Below, piece after piece: positions 25,718 to 40,246 of a stretch of 64,000 bases of DNA. Below the pieces are notes generated by a model, which was given only the letters and a program-made list of their open reading frames with translations, was not told the origin of the DNA and searched no databases. Source of the DNA: Streptomyces sp. NBC_00190 (GTDB taxonomy: Bacteria > Actinomycetota > Actinomycetes > Streptomycetales > Streptomycetaceae). Numbering within the stretch: position 1 is the stretch's first letter; the number at the start of each line of letters is the position of its first letter. The position numbers and the translations under genes were made by a program. The stretch is from contig NZ_CP108131.1 in NCBI RefSeq assembly GCF_036203305.1, forward strand, positions 248,001 through 312,000, written 5' to 3'.

Positions 25718-26434
25718 TTACACGAAGCTGTACGGGGGCAAGCGCCCGCTGAAACGCAGCTCGATACCGCTGTCGATCTCGCGGGCCAGATTCACCTGCG
25801 CGGCGAGAAGCGCGTCTTCGTGCTCGTCGGGCACGAGGAGCGAGAGGTTGAGGAAGTCGTTCGCCGCGGGCGGGTGGGTGACGTGTTCGCGGGCGAAGGG
25901 CAGCAACGCGTCGACGAGCCCGGCCGCCACGGACTCCTGCCGCGCCTGGACCTCCCCGGCGACCAGCTCCCCAAGGGCGAGCGGCAATTGGGGATCCTGG
26001 TCGCCCGAGCGCATCCGGTCGTTGAGGTCGCCCGCCTCCGGGAGGTCAGCGAGGATCTGCTGCAGCAGCGGTTCCTCGTCCTCTTGTGAGGCCCGCACGT
26101 GGTACTCGGCGCAGTCCTCGAGACGCTCGAGGGCGCTGAAGTAGCCGTCGGCGTTCTCCTGGAGGACTTGGCGGATCGCGGGCTCGCCGTCGGCGATGTA
26201 GCCGAACTGGAGCGGCAGGACCACACCGTCGGCCATCAGGTTTTCCTGCACCTTCTGGTGCGCGAGCAGGTCCCGTCGCTTGGGACGGATCTCCCCGTCG
26301 ACCTCGCTGACGACCGCGCACAGACCTCCCTCGGTGACGGTTCGCAGGGGTGAGGGGTGGGATCCCACGCCTGTCAGCCGGTCAAGGCGCTTCGGGTGGG
26401 CCTCAGCGGTGATCGAGTACACGTAGAACGCCAT
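25718..26434 (-). CDS. gvpF: gas vesicle protein GvpF, copy 1
   Basis: The 238-residue product opens with MAFYVYSITAEAHPKRLDRL and contains VLPLQFGYIADGEPAIRQVL, EDCAEYHVRA and the closing RFSGRLPPYSFV, all hallmarks of the GvpF/GvpL family (two alpha/beta domains). GvpF binds GvpA and is needed for shell assembly. It starts three bases after gvpA ends. Copy 2 (36560-37279) has the same length within one residue. Confidence 0.9.
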   Translation of the reverse strand: MAFYVYSITAEAHPKRLDRLTGVGSHPSPLRTVTEGGLCAVVSEVDGEIRPKRRDLLAHQKVQENLMADGVVLPLQFGYIADGEPAIRQVLQENADGYFSALERLEDCAEYHVRASQEDEEPLLQQILADLPEAGDLNDRMRSGDQDPQLPLALGELVAGEVQARQESVAAGLVDALLPFAREHVTHPPAANDFLNLSLLVPDEHEDALLAAQVNLAREIDSGIELRFSGRLPPYSFV

Positions 26435-26437
26435 CGG

Positions 26438-26896
26438 TCACCCCTTCTCCCGGCGTACCGGGCGCCGGGCCGGGCGCCGCCGCCTGACGGGTTCCTCTTC
26501 CATTTCCTCCTGCTCCTCCTCCGCTTCTTCAGCCTTGGAGGACTTGCCGGTCAGGGAACCGGTGACCGGTTCGACGGCTCCGCTGATCGCGCCTTTGGAT
26601 TTCCCGCGGGCGCCGCCTTCGACCATGTTCCCCACGACTTCGGGCAGTTGGGCCGGCGCCTTGCGGCCCGCTTCGAGGTCGAGGCGGTTGCAAGCCTCGG
26701 CGAAGCGAAGGTAGGTGTCGACGCTGGCCACCACGATCCGCGCGTCGATCTTGATGAGTTCGATGCCCACCACGGAGACACGGACGAAGACGTCGATGAC
26801 CAGTCCGCGGTCGAGAATGAGCTCCAGGACGTCGTAGAGGCTGCTCGTGCCGCCTGCCCTGCTCATGCTGCTGCCGCTCTGCGGCACGATGGTCAT
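26438..26896 (-). CDS. gvpA: major gas vesicle shell protein GvpA, copy 1 (long-tailed)
   Basis: The GvpA core of about 60 residues ([20 protein letters not shown], then [20 protein letters not shown] and [18 protein letters not shown]) forms the wall rib. Unlike the 70-80-residue cyanobacterial GvpA, this one is about 152 residues, with a hydrophilic tail ending in Glu- and Arg-rich runs. Such long tails are typical of actinomycete GvpA and may change how it packs. MTIVPQSG at 26896 is preferred to an upstream ATG. Copy 2 is at 37283-37747. Confidence 0.9.
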   Translation of the reverse strand: MTIVPQSGSSMSRAGGTSSLYDVLELILDRGLVIDVFVRVSVVGIELIKIDARIVVASVDTYLRFAEACNRLDLEAGRKAPAQLPEVVGNMVEGGARGKSKGAISGAVEPVTGSLTGKSSKAEEAEEEQEEMEEEPVRRRRPARRPVRREKG

Positions 26897-26926
26897 GGTG
26901 CCTCCTTCTGGGGGCGGCCGGGCCAT

Positions 26927-27301
26927 TCAGGTCGACCGGTCGATCATGCCGCGGCTGTAGCGGCGGATCCGTTCGTAGGAGATCAGCTCGCCCTCCCCGT
27001 CCAAAGCGACCCGGTAGCTGGCCATCACGCTGGTGGTGTCCGGGATCCTTTCCAGCTCCACCACCTCCACCTGCGCCTCCCAGCCGTCCTCCGTCGGCTT
27101 GAGCGAGGACACCGAGTCAGGGAACCGGCCGAGCAGTTGGGCCAACTGCTCGGCCGCCGAACGCATCGCCGCCGCAGCCGAGGGCACACCCGTTCGGCGA
27201 CGGGAGGCAGCGCGCCGTGGGAATTGCGTGTCCTGCTCTTCACCTTCGCCGCCGGCCCGGGAAGACACCCGCCGCGGGCGTGGATGTTCTGCTGCGGCCA
27301 T
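26927..27301 (-). CDS. gvpO: gas vesicle protein GvpO, copy 1
   Basis: The 124-residue product has a variable basic head (about 40 residues) and the GvpO domain: AAEQLAQLLGRFPDSVSSLK, DGWEAQVEVVELERIPDTTS, ASYRVALDGEGELISYERIR. It is the first gene of the leftward operon, with a strong GGGAGGGG site. In haloarchaea GvpO affects gvp expression. The 75 C-terminal residues match copy 2 almost exactly. Confidence 0.85.
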   Translation of the reverse strand: MAAAEHPRPRRVSSRAGGEGEEQDTQFPRRAASRRRTGVPSAAAAMRSAAEQLAQLLGRFPDSVSSLKPTEDGWEAQVEVVELERIPDTTSVMASYRVALDGEGELISYERIRRYSRGMIDRST

Positions 27302-27498
27302 AAGCCCCTCCCTTGGGGAGACGGCCTCACAGAAACTAGAATGTCACTAAATCTACGCATAAGTCTTGCGCCGTGGGCAGGAGCTTTCCGAGGACCGTTC
27401 CGGCTGTACGCCTTCGTCGGCCGGCGGCGTGGACGCCGCGGTCCGCTGTCCGCGGGCGGTACCACCCGGTCCGCAAGCGCCCTGATTAGGGGATGACC
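27302..27498. promoter_or_regulatory. divergent gvpO/gvpY promoter region, copy 1
   Basis: This region shares a 21-base identical block (27327-27347) with copy 2 (38178-38198) placed 25 bases from each gvpO start. Toward gvpY, TAGAAT within the block can serve as a -10 element, with TTGGGG 18 bases upstream as a weak -35. The surrounding bases are less conserved, so the block is likely functional. Confidence 0.5.
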
Positions 27499-28461
27499 AT
27501 GGAGGACACCACAAAGATCGCGCTCGCAGCCGCTGTGGTCGGGGGCTACGTGCTCGGCCGAGCCAAAAAGGGCCGCCTGGCTTTCACCGCGGCCACCTAT
27601 CTCGCCGGTCGCCGCTTCGGCCTGGAGCCGGGGCAGCTGATGAAGGAAGGCCTCTCCCGGCTCAAGGAGATGCCGCAGTTCGCCGACCTCGGTGAGCAAC
27701 TGCGCGGGGAAGCCCTCGACGCCGGTCGGCAGGCTCTGAGCGCCGCGGCCAACCGCAAACTCTCCGAGCTCGCCGACACCCTCCACGACCGCACCCTTGA
27801 GCTCACCCAGCCAGCCTCCGACCGCGACGAGGACTACGAAGACGAAGAAGAAGAACCCTACGAGGACGAAGAAGCCCAGGACTACGCGGAAGACGAGGAG
27901 GAGTACGCGGAGCCCGAAGCCGAAGAGGAGGAAGAGGAAGAGGAAGAGGAAGAGGAGGAACCGGAGGAAGAAGAGGAACCGGAGGAGGAACCGAGCGAGG
28001 AGCCTCCGCCGCGGCGGCGGCAGGTGCGAGCACCGACCCGTGGCCGCACCGGCAGGCCCTCTGCTGCCCCCACTCGCAAAGCCGCACAGCGGCCGAGTGC
28101 TTCCAAGCGGGCCGCTCCCGCCAAGAAGACCGCGGCGAAGAAGACGACCGGCGCGAAGTCCGCGGCGGCCAGGGCCACACCGGCCAGGAAGAGGACCGCC
28201 ACCAAGACGGCACCCTCCAAGACCGCCGCCAAGAAGACGGCGGCCAAGAAGACCGCGACGGCGCCGAGCAAAAAGACGACAGGCCGCGGCCCTGCGCGCA
28301 AGACGGCCGCCAAGAAGACCGGCAGCACAGCGCCCGGCAAGAAGACCACAAGCCAGAGCAGCGCACGGAAGACGGCTGCCAAGAAGGCCACAGGCCGCGG
28401 CCCGGCACGCAAGACGGCCGCCAAGAAGACGACGGCGCGCAAGCCGTCCGCGCGGAGGTAG
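27499..28461 (+). CDS. gvpY: gas-vesicle-associated protein GvpY, copy 1 (acidic run plus H1-like tail)
   Basis: The 320-residue product has three parts. First, a conserved head of about 100 residues (MEDTTKIALAAAVVGGYVLG, then RRFGLEPGQLMKEGLSRLKE). Second, an almost purely acidic stretch (about 110-170) with long Glu runs. Third, a Lys/Ala-rich tail of some 140 residues built of AAKKT-like units, as in histone H1-like proteins. The Streptomyces gvp cluster name gvpY is used because of position and size. Relatives are sometimes mislabelled DNA primase. MED at 27499 is preferred to the upstream ATG on ribosome-site spacing. Confidence 0.75.
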   Translation: MEDTTKIALAAAVVGGYVLGRAKKGRLAFTAATYLAGRRFGLEPGQLMKEGLSRLKEMPQFADLGEQLRGEALDAGRQALSAAANRKLSELADTLHDRTLELTQPASDRDEDYEDEEEEPYEDEEAQDYAEDEEEYAEPEAEEEEEEEEEEEEEPEEEEEPEEEPSEEPPPRRRQVRAPTRGRTGRPSAAPTRKAAQRPSASKRAAPAKKTAAKKTTGAKSAAARATPARKRTATKTAPSKTAAKKTAAKKTATAPSKKTTGRGPARKTAAKKTGSTAPGKKTTSQSSARKTAAKKATGRGPARKTAAKKTTARKPSARR

Positions 28462-28464
28462 GCC

Positions 28465-29574
28465 ATGGCAACCTCAACCCGCGCCAACGCCCAGGAATCG
28501 GAAACCTCAGGGCTGGATCAGCTCGTCAAGGAACTGTCCGGATATCTCTCCGCCCAGGCGGACCAGCTGGCCGAGAAGGCGACCGACAAACTCGGAGACC
28601 TCACCGACCAGCTCTACGACGTGGCCGAGAACGGCGGCAAGCTGTCCGACATAGCCGGAATCGGCGGCCGCCTCGCGCAGGGCGACTCCCCGTTGAAAGC
28701 CGTCGCCGGCCAGACACTCGGCAACCTGAAGGACAAGGTCGCCGACACCGCGTCCCAGGTATTCGGCAAAGGCCGAGGCCGCAAGAGCGGCGGGAAGGTC
28801 GTCAACATCGTCGAAGCGCTCGACATCGGGCTGCCTCTGCGCACGACCTACGACCACTGGTGCCAGTACGAGAACTTCAGCAGCTTCGCCAAAGGCGTCC
28901 GCGATGTCTCGCGCGACGACGAAACCAACAGCGACTGGAAAGTCAAGGTCGGTCCGTCCACCCGCTCTTGGAAGGCAACCGTCCAAGAGCAGGTGCCCGA
29001 CGAGCGCATCGTGTGGACGTCATCAGGCGCAAAGGGAACCACCCGCGGTTGCGTCAGCTTCCACGAGCTCGCCCCGTCACTGACCCGCATCGTCATCGTG
29101 GTCGAGTACAACCCGGCCGGACTGTTCGAGAAGACGGGCAACCTCTGGCGCGCCCAAGGCCGCCGCCTGCGTCTGGACCTCAAGAACTTCTTGCGCTACG
29201 TCACCCTCACCACTGACGAGCCCGAAGGCTGGCGTGGCGAGATCCAGGACGGCGAAGTCGTCCGGACCCACGAGGAAGCCCTCGACGACGAAGAGGCGGC
29301 AGAGGGAGAGGATGAGCAGGGGGAGGATGAGGACCAGTACGAAGACGCCGAGGACGGTGAAGAAGAGGAAGCATACGAGGACGAGGACGAGGACGCGGAC
29401 GCGGACGCGGATCAGCCGGAGGACGCCGAGGCCGAAACCGAAGATGACACGTACGACACCGACGAACCCGACGCCGAGGAGGGCGAGGACGAAGAGGTGG
29501 ACGAGGGCGAGGGCGAGTACGAGGAGGAGGCAGAGGAGCCCCGTCCCCGCCGGCGCCGCCGACAGGCCGCTTGA
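28465..29574 (+). CDS. gvpZ: gas-vesicle-associated SRPBCC protein GvpZ, copy 1
   Basis: The 369-residue product has a helical head (about 15-85: LDQLVKELSGYLSAQADQLA), an SRPBCC/cyclase-dehydrase domain (about 110-255: VNIVEALDIGLPLRTTYDHW, FSSFAKGVRDVSRDDETNSD, RSWKATVQEQVPDERIVWTS), and a tail of about 100 residues dominated by Asp and Glu, ending RPRRRRRQAA. The SRPBCC domain can bind lipids or other hydrophobic molecules. It follows gvpY by three bases. The tail is longer than in copy 2 by about 30 residues. The actual role in vesicles is unproven. Confidence 0.8.
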   Translation: MATSTRANAQESETSGLDQLVKELSGYLSAQADQLAEKATDKLGDLTDQLYDVAENGGKLSDIAGIGGRLAQGDSPLKAVAGQTLGNLKDKVADTASQVFGKGRGRKSGGKVVNIVEALDIGLPLRTTYDHWCQYENFSSFAKGVRDVSRDDETNSDWKVKVGPSTRSWKATVQEQVPDERIVWTSSGAKGTTRGCVSFHELAPSLTRIVIVVEYNPAGLFEKTGNLWRAQGRRLRLDLKNFLRYVTLTTDEPEGWRGEIQDGEVVRTHEEALDDEEAAEGEDEQGEDEDQYEDAEDGEEEEAYEDEDEDADADADQPEDAEAETEDDTYDTDEPDAEEGEDEEVDEGEGEYEEEAEEPRPRRRRRQAA

Positions 29575-30486: not shown

Positions 30487-30762
30487 TCAGGTGTGCAGGA
30501 GGCTGTTGACGCCGTCGTGGCCGTCGGCCTGGTCCTCGTCGAACCAGTAGTCACCCGCCGCCAGGTAGCGGAAGGAATGCACGCTCTTCGCCGGCAGGCC
30601 GACCGTGACCGCGCGGGTGCCGTCACTGCGCGGCTGAAGGGTGTGGGCGCCGGGCTTCCATTCGTTGAAGTCACCGACAACGCTGACCGGGCCCGGCGGG
30701 ATGTCCGCGGGCAGGACGAAGGTGACCTGGGCACGGTCCTTGAGCAGCTTGCGTTCGAGCAT
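30487..30762 (-). CDS. isoamylase early-set (CBM48-like) domain protein, copy 2
   Basis: The 91-residue protein starts MLERKLLKDRAQVTFVLPAD and keeps the same length as copy 1 (7871-8146), with VSVVGDFNEWKPGAHTLQPR, RAVTVGLPAKSVHSFRYLAA and GDYWFDEDQADGHDG. Tryptophans expected in glycan binding are conserved. The ribosome site GGAG (GCAGGAGCTC) lies 8-15 bases upstream. It is a single gene here, not next to a hemerythrin as in copy 1. Confidence 0.8.
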   Translation of the reverse strand: MLERKLLKDRAQVTFVLPADIPPGPVSVVGDFNEWKPGAHTLQPRSDGTRAVTVGLPAKSVHSFRYLAAGDYWFDEDQADGHDGVNSLLHT

Positions 30763-31260: not shown

Positions 31261-31662
31261 TCAGCCGGCGAGGGCGACGAGCCTTCGGTACTCCAGTTGG
31301 TCTGACCGTCTGGCCGTGAGATGGACGCGAACGTCCGGGAGATACTCCTTCAGGGCGGCGTAGCCGGCTGTGTAGGACTCCTCCTGCCAGCCAGCACCCG
31401 ATGGCACCCACAAGATCAGCACCTGCTCGTGCCTGCGCGCGCCTTCCGGGGTAGCGAAGGAAAGCTCGTGCACGACCAGACGCGCCTCGTCCACGGGCAG
31501 GGCCGCGACCAGCTCCTCATGGGTCAGATTGCCCTCCACCTCCACCAGCAGTACATCCGGGGTTTCGGCGAAACGAAGGATCACGGTATTGATCTCCCGC
31601 GTCTCCTTCAGGTGGTGGAGGACCTCACGGCAGCCTTCCAAGAGGCCGATCGAGCTGCTCAC
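31261..31662 (-). CDS. ADF/cofilin-like (actin-depolymerizing factor homology) protein
   Basis: The 133-residue protein follows the eukaryotic cofilin pattern over its whole length: a short Ser-rich head, GCREVLHHLKETREINTVIL, then LLVEVEGNLTHEELVAALPV, DEARLVVHELSFATPEGARR, EQVLILWVPSGAGWQEESYT, AGYAALKEYLPDVRVHLTAR and SDQLEYRRLVALA. The LP-x-(D/E) motif, the W-x-P turn before the long helix, and the D-x-(L)-x-Y block all line up with yeast cofilin from memory. The basic residues used to grip actin (the R-S-K after the turn) are replaced by QEE, so actin binding is doubtful. The GTG start overlaps the upstream stop (GTGA). Confidence 0.7.
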   Translation of the reverse strand: MSSSIGLLEGCREVLHHLKETREINTVILRFAETPDVLLVEVEGNLTHEELVAALPVDEARLVVHELSFATPEGARRHEQVLILWVPSGAGWQEESYTAGYAALKEYLPDVRVHLTARRSDQLEYRRLVALAG

Positions 31663-31922
31663 GAAAACCTCACTCCGCTGATGGCCTGGGGATCACCCAT
31701 GCGGTTCAACCTTCCACCCCGGGGCGACGACCCTGGGTCGGCCTCGGGCAGCAGCCCCAGCATGTCCAGCAACCGCGCCAGGTTTATTGGATCGGCGGCG
31801 TGTGCAGCAACAGCCCGGCAGGCCGCCGCTCGGTGCGCGCTCCCGGAACACGCCAGGAGATCCGGCTCGTCACAGCCAAAGGGGTCCTTCACCCCGCCGA
31901 TCTCACCACCCTCACCCGCCAC
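31659..31922 (-). CDS. hypothetical small protein coupled to the ADF-like gene
   Basis: The 87-residue frame (or 77 from a GTG at 31892) has plausible coding content: VKDPFGCDEPDLLACSGSAH, then RAAACRAVAAHAADPINLAR and LLDMLGLLPEADPGSS. The leucine pattern suggests a short helical domain. Its TGA overlaps the GTG of the ADF-like gene, so the two are probably translated together. No family was recognised. Confidence 0.45.
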   Translation of the reverse strand: MAGEGGEIGGVKDPFGCDEPDLLACSGSAHRAAACRAVAAHAADPINLARLLDMLGLLPEADPGSSPRGGRLNRMGDPQAISGVRFS

Positions 31923-34400: not shown

Positions 34401-34802
34401 CTAGTCGTGGGGCGGGAGGAGGGGGCCGAGGGGGCCGAGGTCGATGTTGAGGTCTTCCAGGGCATAGCCGTGTTCGGCGCATAGGTCGGCGAGGCTGTCG
34501 TGGAGGGCGAGGAGGGTGGCGCCGAGTTCTTCTTCTTGTTCATCGGTGAGATCGCCGGCATCGACGCGTCGCAGGGCTTGGCGTTCGATGAGCTGGCGCA
34601 GCAGCTCGACGATGGTGAGGACGAGTTTCAGGAGGTCTTCCCCGACGCTGTCCGGGTCGGTGGTCAAGCGGTGGGCGGGGCGGGTGGGTTGGTGGGGGGC
34701 AGGGGGTGGCTGGATGAGGCGAAAGGCCTGGGACAGACTGTCGCCGAGGTCTTGGAGGCGGCCTGGCCTGGAGCGTGGGGGCGGGGGGTGTTCATGGCTC
34801 AT
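34401..34802 (-). CDS. gvpK: gas vesicle protein GvpK
   Basis: The 133-residue product has a proline-rich head and the GvpK domain: DSVGEDLLKLVLTIVELLRQ, LIERQALRRVDAGDLTDEQE, EELGATLLALHDSLADLCAE, HGYALEDLNIDLGPLGPLL. GvpK is an assembly accessory protein. The ATG at 34802 overlaps the end of gvpS by 11 bases. It is the last gene of the locus; only this copy carries gvpK. Confidence 0.9.
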   Translation of the reverse strand: MSHEHPPPPRSRPGRLQDLGDSLSQAFRLIQPPPAPHQPTRPAHRLTTDPDSVGEDLLKLVLTIVELLRQLIERQALRRVDAGDLTDEQEEELGATLLALHDSLADLCAEHGYALEDLNIDLGPLGPLLPPHD

Positions 34803-35013
34803 TGCGTCCGCCGTTCTGTGCCCGCGCGGGGGTGGTCTCGGAGCTGACGGAGACGATGAGGGCGCGCAGTGAGATGCGGACGAGGTCGATGTCGGCAATG
34901 GACAGGACGACGTCGCCGGTGAGGACGACTCCACCGCTCAGGAGCCGGTCGAGGAGGTCGACGAGGGCGACCTGGCGGCCGGGCAGGGGCTCTCCGCGTT
35001 CGCTGACGGTCAT
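34792..35013 (-). CDS. gvpS: gas vesicle protein GvpS (GvpA family)
   Basis: The 73-residue GvpA-family protein VALVDLLDRLLSGGVVLTGD, VVLSIADIDLVRISLRALIV, and so on, is shorter than GvpJ and lacks the WWEHD segment. In Streptomyces the gene between gvpL and gvpK is called gvpS. It is coupled to gvpL by an ATGA overlap. Confidence 0.8.
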   Translation of the reverse strand: MTVSERGEPLPGRQVALVDLLDRLLSGGVVLTGDVVLSIADIDLVRISLRALIVSVSSETTPARAQNGGRNEP

Positions 35014-35849
35014 CGCGGTGGCTCGGGGGTGTCGGCCGGGGCGGGTGCCGGCGTGGCGAAGGAGTAGGGAGCCCAGGGGCCGGTGACCTCGATGCGCAGG
35101 TCGGGAAAGCTCCGGGCGGCGTCGGCGATGGCAGCTTGGAACTGCTCGGCCTGGTCGTCGGGGATGAGGTAGGCGTCGTTGAGGACATTCTCCTGCGGGC
35201 CGGTGAGTTCTCCGCGCTGGGGTGCGTGTCGTACGCGCTGGGTGGTGTGGCGAGATGCGATGGCTTCAATGATCTCGGCAGCCTGCTCAGCTTGCCGGTA
35301 GACAGCGTCACGGGAGTGGCGCTGGGCTCTGCGGGCCTGCAGGTAGGCCTTGCCCGGGCTGGCGGGTGGGGCTGGGGCGGCGCTCGGGGGCTGCCCGGCG
35401 GCGGGTGTGAGGTAGACCTTCACGCCGTATTCGGTGTGGGCGCGCAGCTGGTCGAGGCGCTGGGTGAAGACAGCCTGCTGTGTCGAAAGCGCTTGCCGGG
35501 CCCGATGGTCGTCCTGGTAGACGGTGGCCATCCGCAGGGGCAGGACGGTTGCGCGGGCGGCGACGGCCTGGACGACCTCGTGATGGGTGCGCGCGACGTA
35601 CTCGAGCCAGTCCAGGTCCTCGAAGTGGCTTTTGAGGGCGGTCTCGTTGAAGTCTTGTTCGGGCACGTCGCTGGCGACGAAGGCAAGCTGTGCGAGCGAC
35701 GTGCCGGGGGCGGAATCAGTGGTGTCGCCAGTGGGGGGAAGGAGCCTGAGCGGAGCCTGGCCGATGCCGTGCAGGCCCGCGAGGGCCTGGTTGAGCGGCC
35801 CGGGGTGGTGGGTGACTGCGTAGACGTAGGTGAGGTTGCCAGTGGTCAC
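35010..35849 (-). CDS. gvpL: gas vesicle protein GvpL
   Basis: The 279-residue product of the GvpF/L family opens LTYVYAVTHHPGPLNQALAG and contains LEYVARTHHEVVQAVAARAT, VLPLRMATVYQDDHRARQAL and a closing PWAPYSF. The central segment (about 150-200) is longer than in GvpF. It contributes to assembly; GTGA overlap with gvpJ copy 2 upstream and ATGA with gvpS downstream show tight coupling. No equivalent exists in copy 1. Confidence 0.9.
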   Translation of the reverse strand: MTTGNLTYVYAVTHHPGPLNQALAGLHGIGQAPLRLLPPTGDTTDSAPGTSLAQLAFVASDVPEQDFNETALKSHFEDLDWLEYVARTHHEVVQAVAARATVLPLRMATVYQDDHRARQALSTQQAVFTQRLDQLRAHTEYGVKVYLTPAAGQPPSAAPAPPASPGKAYLQARRAQRHSRDAVYRQAEQAAEIIEAIASRHTTQRVRHAPQRGELTGPQENVLNDAYLIPDDQAEQFQAAIADAARSFPDLRIEVTGPWAPYSFATPAPAPADTPEPPR

Positions 35850-36262
35850 GGTGGGCTCTCCCGTCGTCGGTCGGCCGGTCGGCCGACCGGCTCCTCACCC
35901 GCGGCTCCTTCTTCGTCGCCGCTAGGTCCGAGCCGGCCGCGGAGGGCTTCGAGCTCGGCTCGCAGGCGGCGGTTCTCCTGTTCCAGGGGGCTGCCTGTGT
36001 GCCGGGTGGAGAGGGAGGGGTCGTGCTCCCACCAGTCGATTCCCATCTCCTTGGCCTTGTCCACGGAGGCGATCAGGATCCGGAGTTTGATGGTCAACAG
36101 CTCGATGTCGAGGAGGTTGATGCGGATGTCGCCGGCGATGACGATGCCCTTGTCCAGGACCCGCTCCAGGATGTCGGCGAGGCTGGAGGAGGAGGTCTGC
36201 CCGTACGGCACCGGCGAGCGGGAGGCGAAGCTTCCGGGTCGGCCGGGCAGGGATTCACTCAC
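35846..36262 (-). CDS. gvpJ: gas vesicle protein GvpJ, copy 2
   Basis: The 138-residue product has SSLADILERVLDKGIVIAGD and KEMGIDWWEHDPSLSTRHTG identical or nearly so to copy 1. The C-terminal tail differs (RGRLGPSGDEEGAAGEEPVG) and lacks the EREGE repeat of copy 1. The GTG start gives VSESLPGRPG. It is coupled to gvpL. Confidence 0.9.
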   Translation of the reverse strand: MSESLPGRPGSFASRSPVPYGQTSSSSLADILERVLDKGIVIAGDIRINLLDIELLTIKLRILIASVDKAKEMGIDWWEHDPSLSTRHTGSPLEQENRRLRAELEALRGRLGPSGDEEGAAGEEPVGRPADRRRESPP

Positions 36263-39229: not shown

Positions 39230-40246
39230 ATGGCAAGCTCAGCCCGCACCAGCTCGCCTCAGGCCCCCTCTGGGGTGGACCAGCTACTGAAGGAACTCTC
39301 GGGTTACCTCGCCGCCCAAGCCGAGCAGCTGGCCGACAAGGCCGCCGACAAGCTCTCCGATGTCACCGATCAGCTCTACGACGTCGCCGACAACAACGGC
39401 AGCCTCTCGGATATGGTCGGCATCGGTGGTCGGCTCCTGCAGGGCGACTCCCCCCTCAAAGCCATCGCCGGCCAGAAGCTCGCCAACCTCAAGGACAAAA
39501 TCACCGAGGCCTTCGGCGGCGGTAAAGGCCGCAAGAGCGGCGGCGGCAAGGTAGTCAACATCGTAGAAGCGATCGACGTCGGCCTCCCGCTGCGCACGAC
39601 CTACGACCACTGGACGCAGTACGAGGACTTCAGCGGCTTCGCCAAAGGCGTCCGCGATGTCTCCCGCGACGACGACACCACCAGCGACTGGAAGGTCAAG
39701 GTGGGACCCTCCACCCGAAGCTGGAAAGCCACCGTCCAGGAACAGATACCCGACGACCGCATCGTGTGGACCTCCCAGGGAGCCAAGGGCACCACCCGCG
39801 GCTGCGTCGCCTTCCACGAACTCGCCCCGTCACTGACCCGCATCGTCATCGTCGTCGAATACCACCCCTCCGGACTGTTCGAAAAGACCGGCAACCTATG
39901 GCGGGCCCAGGGGCGTCGCCTGCGCCTGGACCTCAAGAACTTCCTGCGCTACACCATGCTCACCACCGACGAACCAGAAGGCTGGCGCGGCGAGATCCGC
40001 GACGGCGAAGTCGTCCAGACGCACGAAGAAGCCCTCGAAGAAGAACAAGCCGAAGACGCAGAGGAAGACGAGTACAGCGCCGAAGAGGACGAGAGCGAGG
40101 CCGAAGAGGAGGACGAGAGCGAGGAGCAGGGCGAAGAAGGAGCCGAGGAAGAGGACTACGAAGAGGACTACACCGCCAACCAAGACGAACCCGAGGAAGA
40201 AGCCGACGGAGAAGAGCACGAAGCCTCTCCATCTCGCCGACGCTGA
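39230..40246 (+). CDS. gvpZ: gas-vesicle-associated SRPBCC protein GvpZ, copy 2
   Basis: The 338-residue product keeps the helical head (LLKELSGYLAAQAEQLADKA), the SRPBCC domain (FSGFAKGVRDVSRDDDTTSD, RSWKATVQEQIPDDRIVWTS, RIVIVVEYHPSGLFEKTGNL) and an acidic tail ending EASPSRRR. The SRPBCC core is highly similar to copy 1; the acidic tail is shorter by about 30 residues and arranged differently. Confidence 0.8.
   Translation: MASSARTSSPQAPSGVDQLLKELSGYLAAQAEQLADKAADKLSDVTDQLYDVADNNGSLSDMVGIGGRLLQGDSPLKAIAGQKLANLKDKITEAFGGGKGRKSGGGKVVNIVEAIDVGLPLRTTYDHWTQYEDFSGFAKGVRDVSRDDDTTSDWKVKVGPSTRSWKATVQEQIPDDRIVWTSQGAKGTTRGCVAFHELAPSLTRIVIVVEYHPSGLFEKTGNLWRAQGRRLRLDLKNFLRYTMLTTDEPEGWRGEIRDGEVVQTHEEALEEEQAEDAEEDEYSAEEDESEAEEEDESEEQGEEGAEEEDYEEDYTANQDEPEEEADGEEHEASPSRRR

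Follow-up and report, generated by a model that had tools for sequence, protein, structure and literature searches.

The window analysed here is a stretch of 64,000 nucleotides from Streptomyces sp. NBC_00190 (contig NZ_CP108131.1, positions 248,001 to 312,000). On its minus strand it carries a gene for an ADF-H (cofilin-like) protein; the same positions read on the plus strand are interrupted by a stop. The features of the locus are collected in Table 1. The product shows the pattern of ADF-H motifs described in the original prediction: an MSSS head, W85-V-P87, then the long helix, and D121-Q-L-E-Y125. No signal-peptide-like head was seen when its 133 residues were inspected by eye. The GTGA overlap of the cofilin start with a small upstream gene, also noted before, lies at 31659-31662.

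Table 1. Features of the ADF-H locus, with their positions in the window
Feature	Position	Strand	Basis or remark
ADF-H (cofilin-like) protein, 133 aa, GTG start	31261..31662	minus	GTG at 31662, stop ending at 31261
Codons of residues 88-107, forming the long helix that faces actin in cofilins	31342..31401	minus	DSSP of the AF2 model and alignment
Codons of W92-Q93-E94-E95, place of the basic pair	31378..31389	minus	columns sp94/sp96
87-aa upstream ORF, stop overlapping the cofilin start by GTGA; core VKDPFGCDEPxLLACSG...LLDMLGL	31659..31922	minus	
91-aa CBM48/AMPK1_CBM-like small protein	30487..30762	minus	PF16561, 7e-4, 20.1 bits
Gas-vesicle genes flanking the ADF-H gene	25718-27301 and 34401-36262	minus	

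The upstream ORF matched no Pfam or NCBIfam family, and when a 51-aa consensus of it was searched against 21 genomes, three gave a match, weak in two cases. Since its frame is kept in three related loci (L055/L083, L070 and L082), it is probably a real small gene, confined to the subclade of the window gene. The first 18 residues of its core are also present in L104, a plasmid copy of S. avidinii (NZ_CP108617.1, 5767-6402), where the RefSeq cofilin CDS starts at the VKDPFGC... peptide, there in the cofilin frame; a fusion of the leader ORF with the ADF-H gene is possible in this case.

Regarding the other neighbours, the small CBM48-like protein scored below the cut-off of the AMPK1_CBM/CBM48 Pfam families (20.1 vs 26.8 bits) and has a weak similarity to the N-terminal domains of GlgB. 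Its AF2 model is all-beta (pLDDT 66), too weak for a fold search, and its relatives are named 'isoamylase early set domain-containing protein' in RefSeq. The gas-vesicle genes, of which five proteins were scanned, comprise GvpL/F and GvpO on one side of the ADF-H gene and GvpK, GvpL/F and a GvpA-type protein on the other; further gvp-family copies lie beyond these flanking sets, which makes two gvp sets in one arm. We also observed a plus-strand gene for a Polyketide_cyc protein with a long acidic tail (28465-29574), which has a paralogue at about 39275-40246. Adjoining it, at 27493-28461, an acidic protein with a Lys/Ala/Pro-rich tail is encoded, which has a histone-like HC2 match below the cut-off.

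Both its sequence and its fold show the window protein to be a genuine ADF-H family member. The original prediction had proposed a profile search and a structure prediction as checks, and both agree with it. The protein matches PF00241 with 41.9 bits (cut-off 22.4) over profile positions 1-122 of 125, and the predicted structure has the ADF-H fold, that is, a sheet of around five strands and, preceding the final strand, a long helix (residues 88-107 by DSSP of the AF2 model). In a search of PDB sequences the top three solved ADF/cofilins were matched with E values of 1.4e-8 to 2.2e-7, the best matches being actophorin (1.4e-8), 5IVU and ADF1; the protein is thus not closer to coactosin than to cofilin. 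Glia maturation factor is a weaker match than the cofilins (0.27 vs 1.4e-8). Arp2/3 is not known from bacteria.

Judged by its residues, the window protein lacks the marks of an actin-severing cofilin. We aligned 113 sequences of the window class with 81 intermediate, 24 canonical bacterial and 41 eukaryotic sequences, using the numbering of S. japonicus cofilin (sp). The basic pair at sp94 and sp96 corresponds, we assume, to yeast R96/K98, which bind actin. Both positions are basic in all 41 eukaryotes, in 21 of the 24 canonical bacterial sequences, in 15 of the 81 intermediates and in none of the 113 window-class sequences. An acid stands at sp96 in 106 of these 113, in 2 intermediates and in no canonical or eukaryotic sequence; among 51 window-class representatives below 80% identity it was found in 48. 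The mean net charge of the helix sp91-108 runs from +4.9 in eukaryotes through +4.3 in the canonical and +0.8 in the intermediate sequences to -2.5 in the window class. In the window protein itself residues 92-95 are W-Q-E-E, against K-S-K-M in S. japonicus, with W92 and E94 in the places of the pair, so the claim that Gln-Glu-Glu replaces the basic residues was correct. The methionine at sp97 has mostly become Glu in the window class.

The basic residues at sp78 and sp80, together with a basic C-terminal helix, presumably form the F-actin site of cofilins. Only the sp78 R of this site is kept in the window protein (0.94 in its class). At sp80, K in 0.95 of the eukaryotes is set against E in 0.74 of the window class, and the C-terminal E/K/R of cofilins are replaced by A or L or are absent. 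Therefore, the R/K pair, the sp80 K and the basic C-terminal helix of the eukaryotic ADF/cofilins (actophorin, yeast cofilin, plant ADF) have all been replaced, and the prediction that the ancestral function was probably lost or changed is supported by a pair present in 41/41 eukaryotes and 0/113 of the window class. The canonical Streptomyces cofilins, which mostly keep the pair, differ from the window protein in this respect, and the latter sits in another clade.

We built a protein tree of 102 rows, 36 of them eukaryotes, mainly fungi and plants. It contains a Streptomyces clade of 45 rows (100/100) with the window class nested inside (100/99). This clade stands on a long stem, around 0.9 changes per column, with no resolved sister among the 36 eukaryotic rows. 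In a second tree, rooted on a eukaryote and made with the helix columns removed, the 45-row clade was recovered (100/99), and five rows with the basic pair formed one of its two basal branches; the basic-pair row P0243 lies some forks inside the clade. The pair is missing in all 18 window-class rows of this tree and seven changes are needed over the whole of it. The loss is imperfectly ordered, as the pair is scored as present in the derived intermediates P0333 and G046 and is absent from four canonical rows. Because the basal rows of the Streptomyces clade still keep the pair, the simplest reading of the sequences would be that a protein with an actin site arrived and then lost the site inside bacteria.

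The canonical rows have other positions. Sixteen of them fell among the Agaricomycetes, beside Lyophyllum, Termitomyces and Hypsizygus, in a grouping with the Lyophyllaceae that is weakly supported (84/46, 91/36), and the canonical rows of G251/WAC05374, MZ04 and G522 were placed elsewhere. The canonical protein of one Streptomyces genome (G299), whose best PDB match is 5IVU, has mushroom cofilins as its nearest eukaryotes among the matches listed, with 66% identity to Lyophyllum shimeji and 64% to Termitomyces over 96%. A single origin of all bacterial rows was weakly rejected (AU p 0.030) and one of all canonical rows was rejected (AU p 0.011); one of the 16 fungus-like rows, a set that was named after the tree was seen, was not rejected (AU 0.51). 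Furthermore, one gene (L022 of G597, G597:C2:170365-170718) is coactosin-like, with 4.6e-21 to a coactosin-like protein vs 1.8e-12 to the best cofilin, and is evidently a separate transfer from a eukaryote. Its host is a non-Streptomyces member of the same bacterial family. Because of the tree placements, the AU tests and this coactosin-like gene, we conclude that ADF-H genes entered the bacterial family of Streptomyces on at least two occasions, probably on four or more.

Of the two origins offered in the original prediction, acquisition from a eukaryote or a distant shared fold, the first is borne out. Sequence similarity, the typical cofilin score of the basal member L004 (112.9 bits in PF00241), the absence from the rest of the phylum sample described below and the fungus-like sister genes support eukaryotic ancestry by transfer rather than merely a shared fold. 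The GC3 means of the classes (0.86, 0.84 and 0.88) do not separate them and give no amelioration clock.

PF00241 was found in 18 of 392 genomes of the genus, the genome of the window included, in 21 of 391 genomes of the order, a sample that overlaps with that of the genus, and in 1 of 396 genomes of the phylum sample, the sole carrier being the window's own genome. None of the 14 control genomes, which represent the bacteria beyond this phylum, had a match. The stated rarity of ADF-H in bacteria thus holds at large but not within Streptomyces. The named bacteria were Streptomyces among the matches listed (best 120 of 138, 120 of 185 and 120 of 471); the canonical type occurs, among the matches listed, in Embleya, Kitasatospora and one Nocardia besides Streptomyces. 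One genome per species was scanned with an alignment of window-class and intermediate sequences, which gave 20 loci, all in Streptomyces (S. avidinii, S. amritsarensis, S. katrae, S. roseus, S. goshikiensis, S. yangpuensis and others). Relatives of the gene are present on six plasmid records. Contigs longer than 7 Mb carry 11 ADF-H copies, of which 9 lie no more than 400 kb from an end and two are farther in, at up to 1.36 Mb. Two irregular copies were also seen. One is a canonical-type cofilin gene split over two frames and perhaps decaying (L025/L034/L063, G539:C28:6201-6561), and the other is an ADF-H frame of Streptomyces sp. NRRL F-2580 (L082, 5001-5948) that runs without a stop to 315 aa, with a tail that by eye looks like read-through.

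The association with the CBM48-like gene was counted in a tblastn panel of 53 neighbourhoods. Before the class counts we dropped two weak partial hits (L057, L071), the coactosin L060, which that panel did not hit, and the duplicates of one locus (L083, L086, L088, L090, L093, L095, L098, L099, L100); L063, the cofilin split over two frames, was counted as canonical. Of the 22 non-redundant window-class loci, 12 have a CBM48-like gene no more than 1.3 kb away from the cofilin gene; none of the 13 intermediate loci and none of the 6 canonical ones has it there. Eight of these 12 genes are upstream on the same strand at 59-757 nt, two share the strand but are downstream (at 502 nt in the window, at 586 nt in L065) and two are on the opposite strand (L052, L066). 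Three of the 6 plasmid records were examined; one is the L070 locus, and the other two, further plasmids annotated by RefSeq, again carry the gene within around 1.2 kb, together with genes for CBS-domain, hemerythrin, PRC-barrel, STAS and ATP-binding proteins. Linkage with the window class has a Fisher p of 9e-5, treating as independent loci that are not so, and chance nearness would be around 0.2% per locus if copies were placed at random; such values are too small, because the loci share a common descent and the two genes tend to occur in islands of the same type.

The other 10 window-class loci have no CBM48-like gene nearby; for two of them (L049 of G209, L055 of G039) the genomes have 6 and 8 matches elsewhere. 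The gene is multi-copy and dispersed, with 7 matches in the genome of the window and up to 10 in one genome, and we found no literature on this multi-copy family. It was present in 24 of 246 genus genomes, 16 of them with no ADF-H match, and therefore it is not a dedicated partner of the cofilin gene.

Regarding regulation, a sigma-B-type promoter was rejected, as GGGTAY was found upstream of 0 of 39 genes. Of 13 intermediates, 8 are preceded by the element AACC-N14-18-CGTTG, which resembles an ECF-sigma promoter (200 Markov shuffles gave a mean of 0.00); none of the 20 window-class genes and none of the 6 canonical ones has it. TCGTTG by itself precedes 9 of 13, 5 of 20 and 0 of 6 respectively, and the window's own gene has neither. 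In these counts L101 has a doubtful start, and L018 and L029, which have no clear start, were omitted. The eight copies of the full element, in L004, L006, L009, L019, L023, L094, L096 and L097, are 64-69 nt before the start. Stress regulation is thus unproven, since GGGTAY is missing from all 39 genes and the longer element from the window class, the window gene included.

Streptomyces cofilins as such are already on record and are not new. The table of a 2009 paper on the origin of phagocytosis (PMC2651865) gives cofilin a homologue in Streptomyces only, as a probable HGT; the S. griseoflavus cofilin has been in the PDB since 2017 (5IVU), and many relatives are named 'cofilin family protein' or 'actin-binding ADF family protein' at NCBI. 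No study of the function of a Streptomyces cofilin was found in the open-access literature, searched by title or abstract start.

Searched with PF00022, the genome of the window gave only weak partial hits (best 37 bits), as did 11 other ADF-H genomes (best 44 bits), and we take these hits for MreB and Hsp70-type proteins. No actin gene was thus found in the genome, which sets the protein apart from the eukaryotic ADF/cofilins. The rebuilt helix might serve to regulate MreB, Mbl or another actin-like filament, in other words a bacterial homologue of actin, given that the ADF-H fold binds actin-family proteins elsewhere and that the hits taken for MreB-type proteins occur in its own genome and in all 11 of the others. 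Nevertheless, similar hits are present in 6 of the 14 control bacteria, which have no ADF-H, and only around 5% of Streptomyces genomes carry the gene. Besides, 25 positions are at least 90% constant in the window class and below 10% in eukaryotes (among them N25-T26, N45-L46-T47-H48, E50, H65-E66, R76, H114 and T116), and the long helix has just one of these, E94. We consider this regulation unlikely. Another possibility is that the protein is still directed at actin, and that Streptomyces releases or injects it to attack fungi, amoebae or other eukaryotes of the soil. The canonical bacterial copies, which have close relatives in fungi and in most cases retain the basic pair, could plausibly act on eukaryotic actin, and it would fit that no actin gene was found in the bacterial genomes tested; genes that by eye resemble a peptide-export ABC cluster lie around 1.1-7.5 kb from the intermediate copy L061 (G643). 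For the window protein this seems improbable, mainly because the site was lost in the whole class and replaced by acid at sp96 in nearly all of it, and also because no signal-peptide-like head was seen by eye.

The gene could also simply be carried along on plastic chromosome ends and plasmids, as a passenger whose role is not under selection in its source species. Its patchy occurrence and its terminal and plasmid location favour this, and there are transposase genes near two plasmid copies. However, in 20 window-class genes pN was lower than pS in 190 of 190 pairs, with a median NG86 dN/dS of 0.37 and a highest value of 0.77 (L082, read past its homologous end to 315 codons, is in 19 of these pairs). 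The window-class gene is under purifying selection and is not decaying. The length is 131-135 aa in 99 of the best 120 homologues listed, and the 25 class-specific residues argue in the same direction, so that a mere passenger is rather improbable. Selection does not point to the old binding surface: the former actin face is conserved no more than average in the window class (mean entropy 1.35 vs 1.01 for the rest; 89% of random column sets as low), which leaves a new ligand on that face without support. As for an ancient shared fold with no transfer at all, the long stem of the 45-row clade, its lack of a resolved sister and a eukaryotic set in the tree made up mainly of fungi and plants are compatible with it, but the direct similarity to actophorin, the cofilin score of L004, the absence from the rest of the phylum sample and the fungus-like sister genes in the same genus make it scarcely credible.

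The account that we favour, and regard as probable, is that a eukaryote-derived ADF-H protein was acquired, kept, changed and repurposed inside the bacterium, with a new partner and as an accessory stress gene. An ancestor of a Streptomyces lineage would have acquired the gene, retained it and altered it; the actin-binding helix has been lost and reversed in charge, and members that have changed less stand at the clade's base. The window protein would no longer bind actin, since no actin gene was found in its genome, and would stay cytoplasmic, since no export signal was seen by eye. It may have found a new partner and act as a protein-interaction module, perhaps alongside the small alpha-glucan-binding-type protein, and its gene may be one of the accessory stress genes of Streptomyces chromosome arms and linear plasmids. 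The link to stress and to alpha-glucans, possible as it is, comes entirely from the gene neighbourhood. More tentatively, we can suggest an actin-independent, acid-faced ADF-H family (113 sequences), reached via intermediates that bear the site and working with that small protein in a bacterial stress response.

A report on Microcystis (PMC3254629) describes a eukaryote-type actin and a profilin, a similar case in which a bacterium received cytoskeletal genes of a eukaryote and the genes then changed. In Microcystis the actin itself was transferred and still binds profilin, according to the same report, and in this it differs from the window genome, where no actin gene was found.

Thus, living bacteria offer a graded series that begins with cofilins bearing the basic actin site and ends with relatives without it, and this series lets one ask what an actin regulator becomes in a cell without actin. 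The repeated entry of ADF-H genes into streptomycetes, from fungi and others, makes the role of the canonical copies worth testing. If our account is true, the ADF-H fold would be an actin-independent module here, and the steps of its conversion would be preserved in living species.
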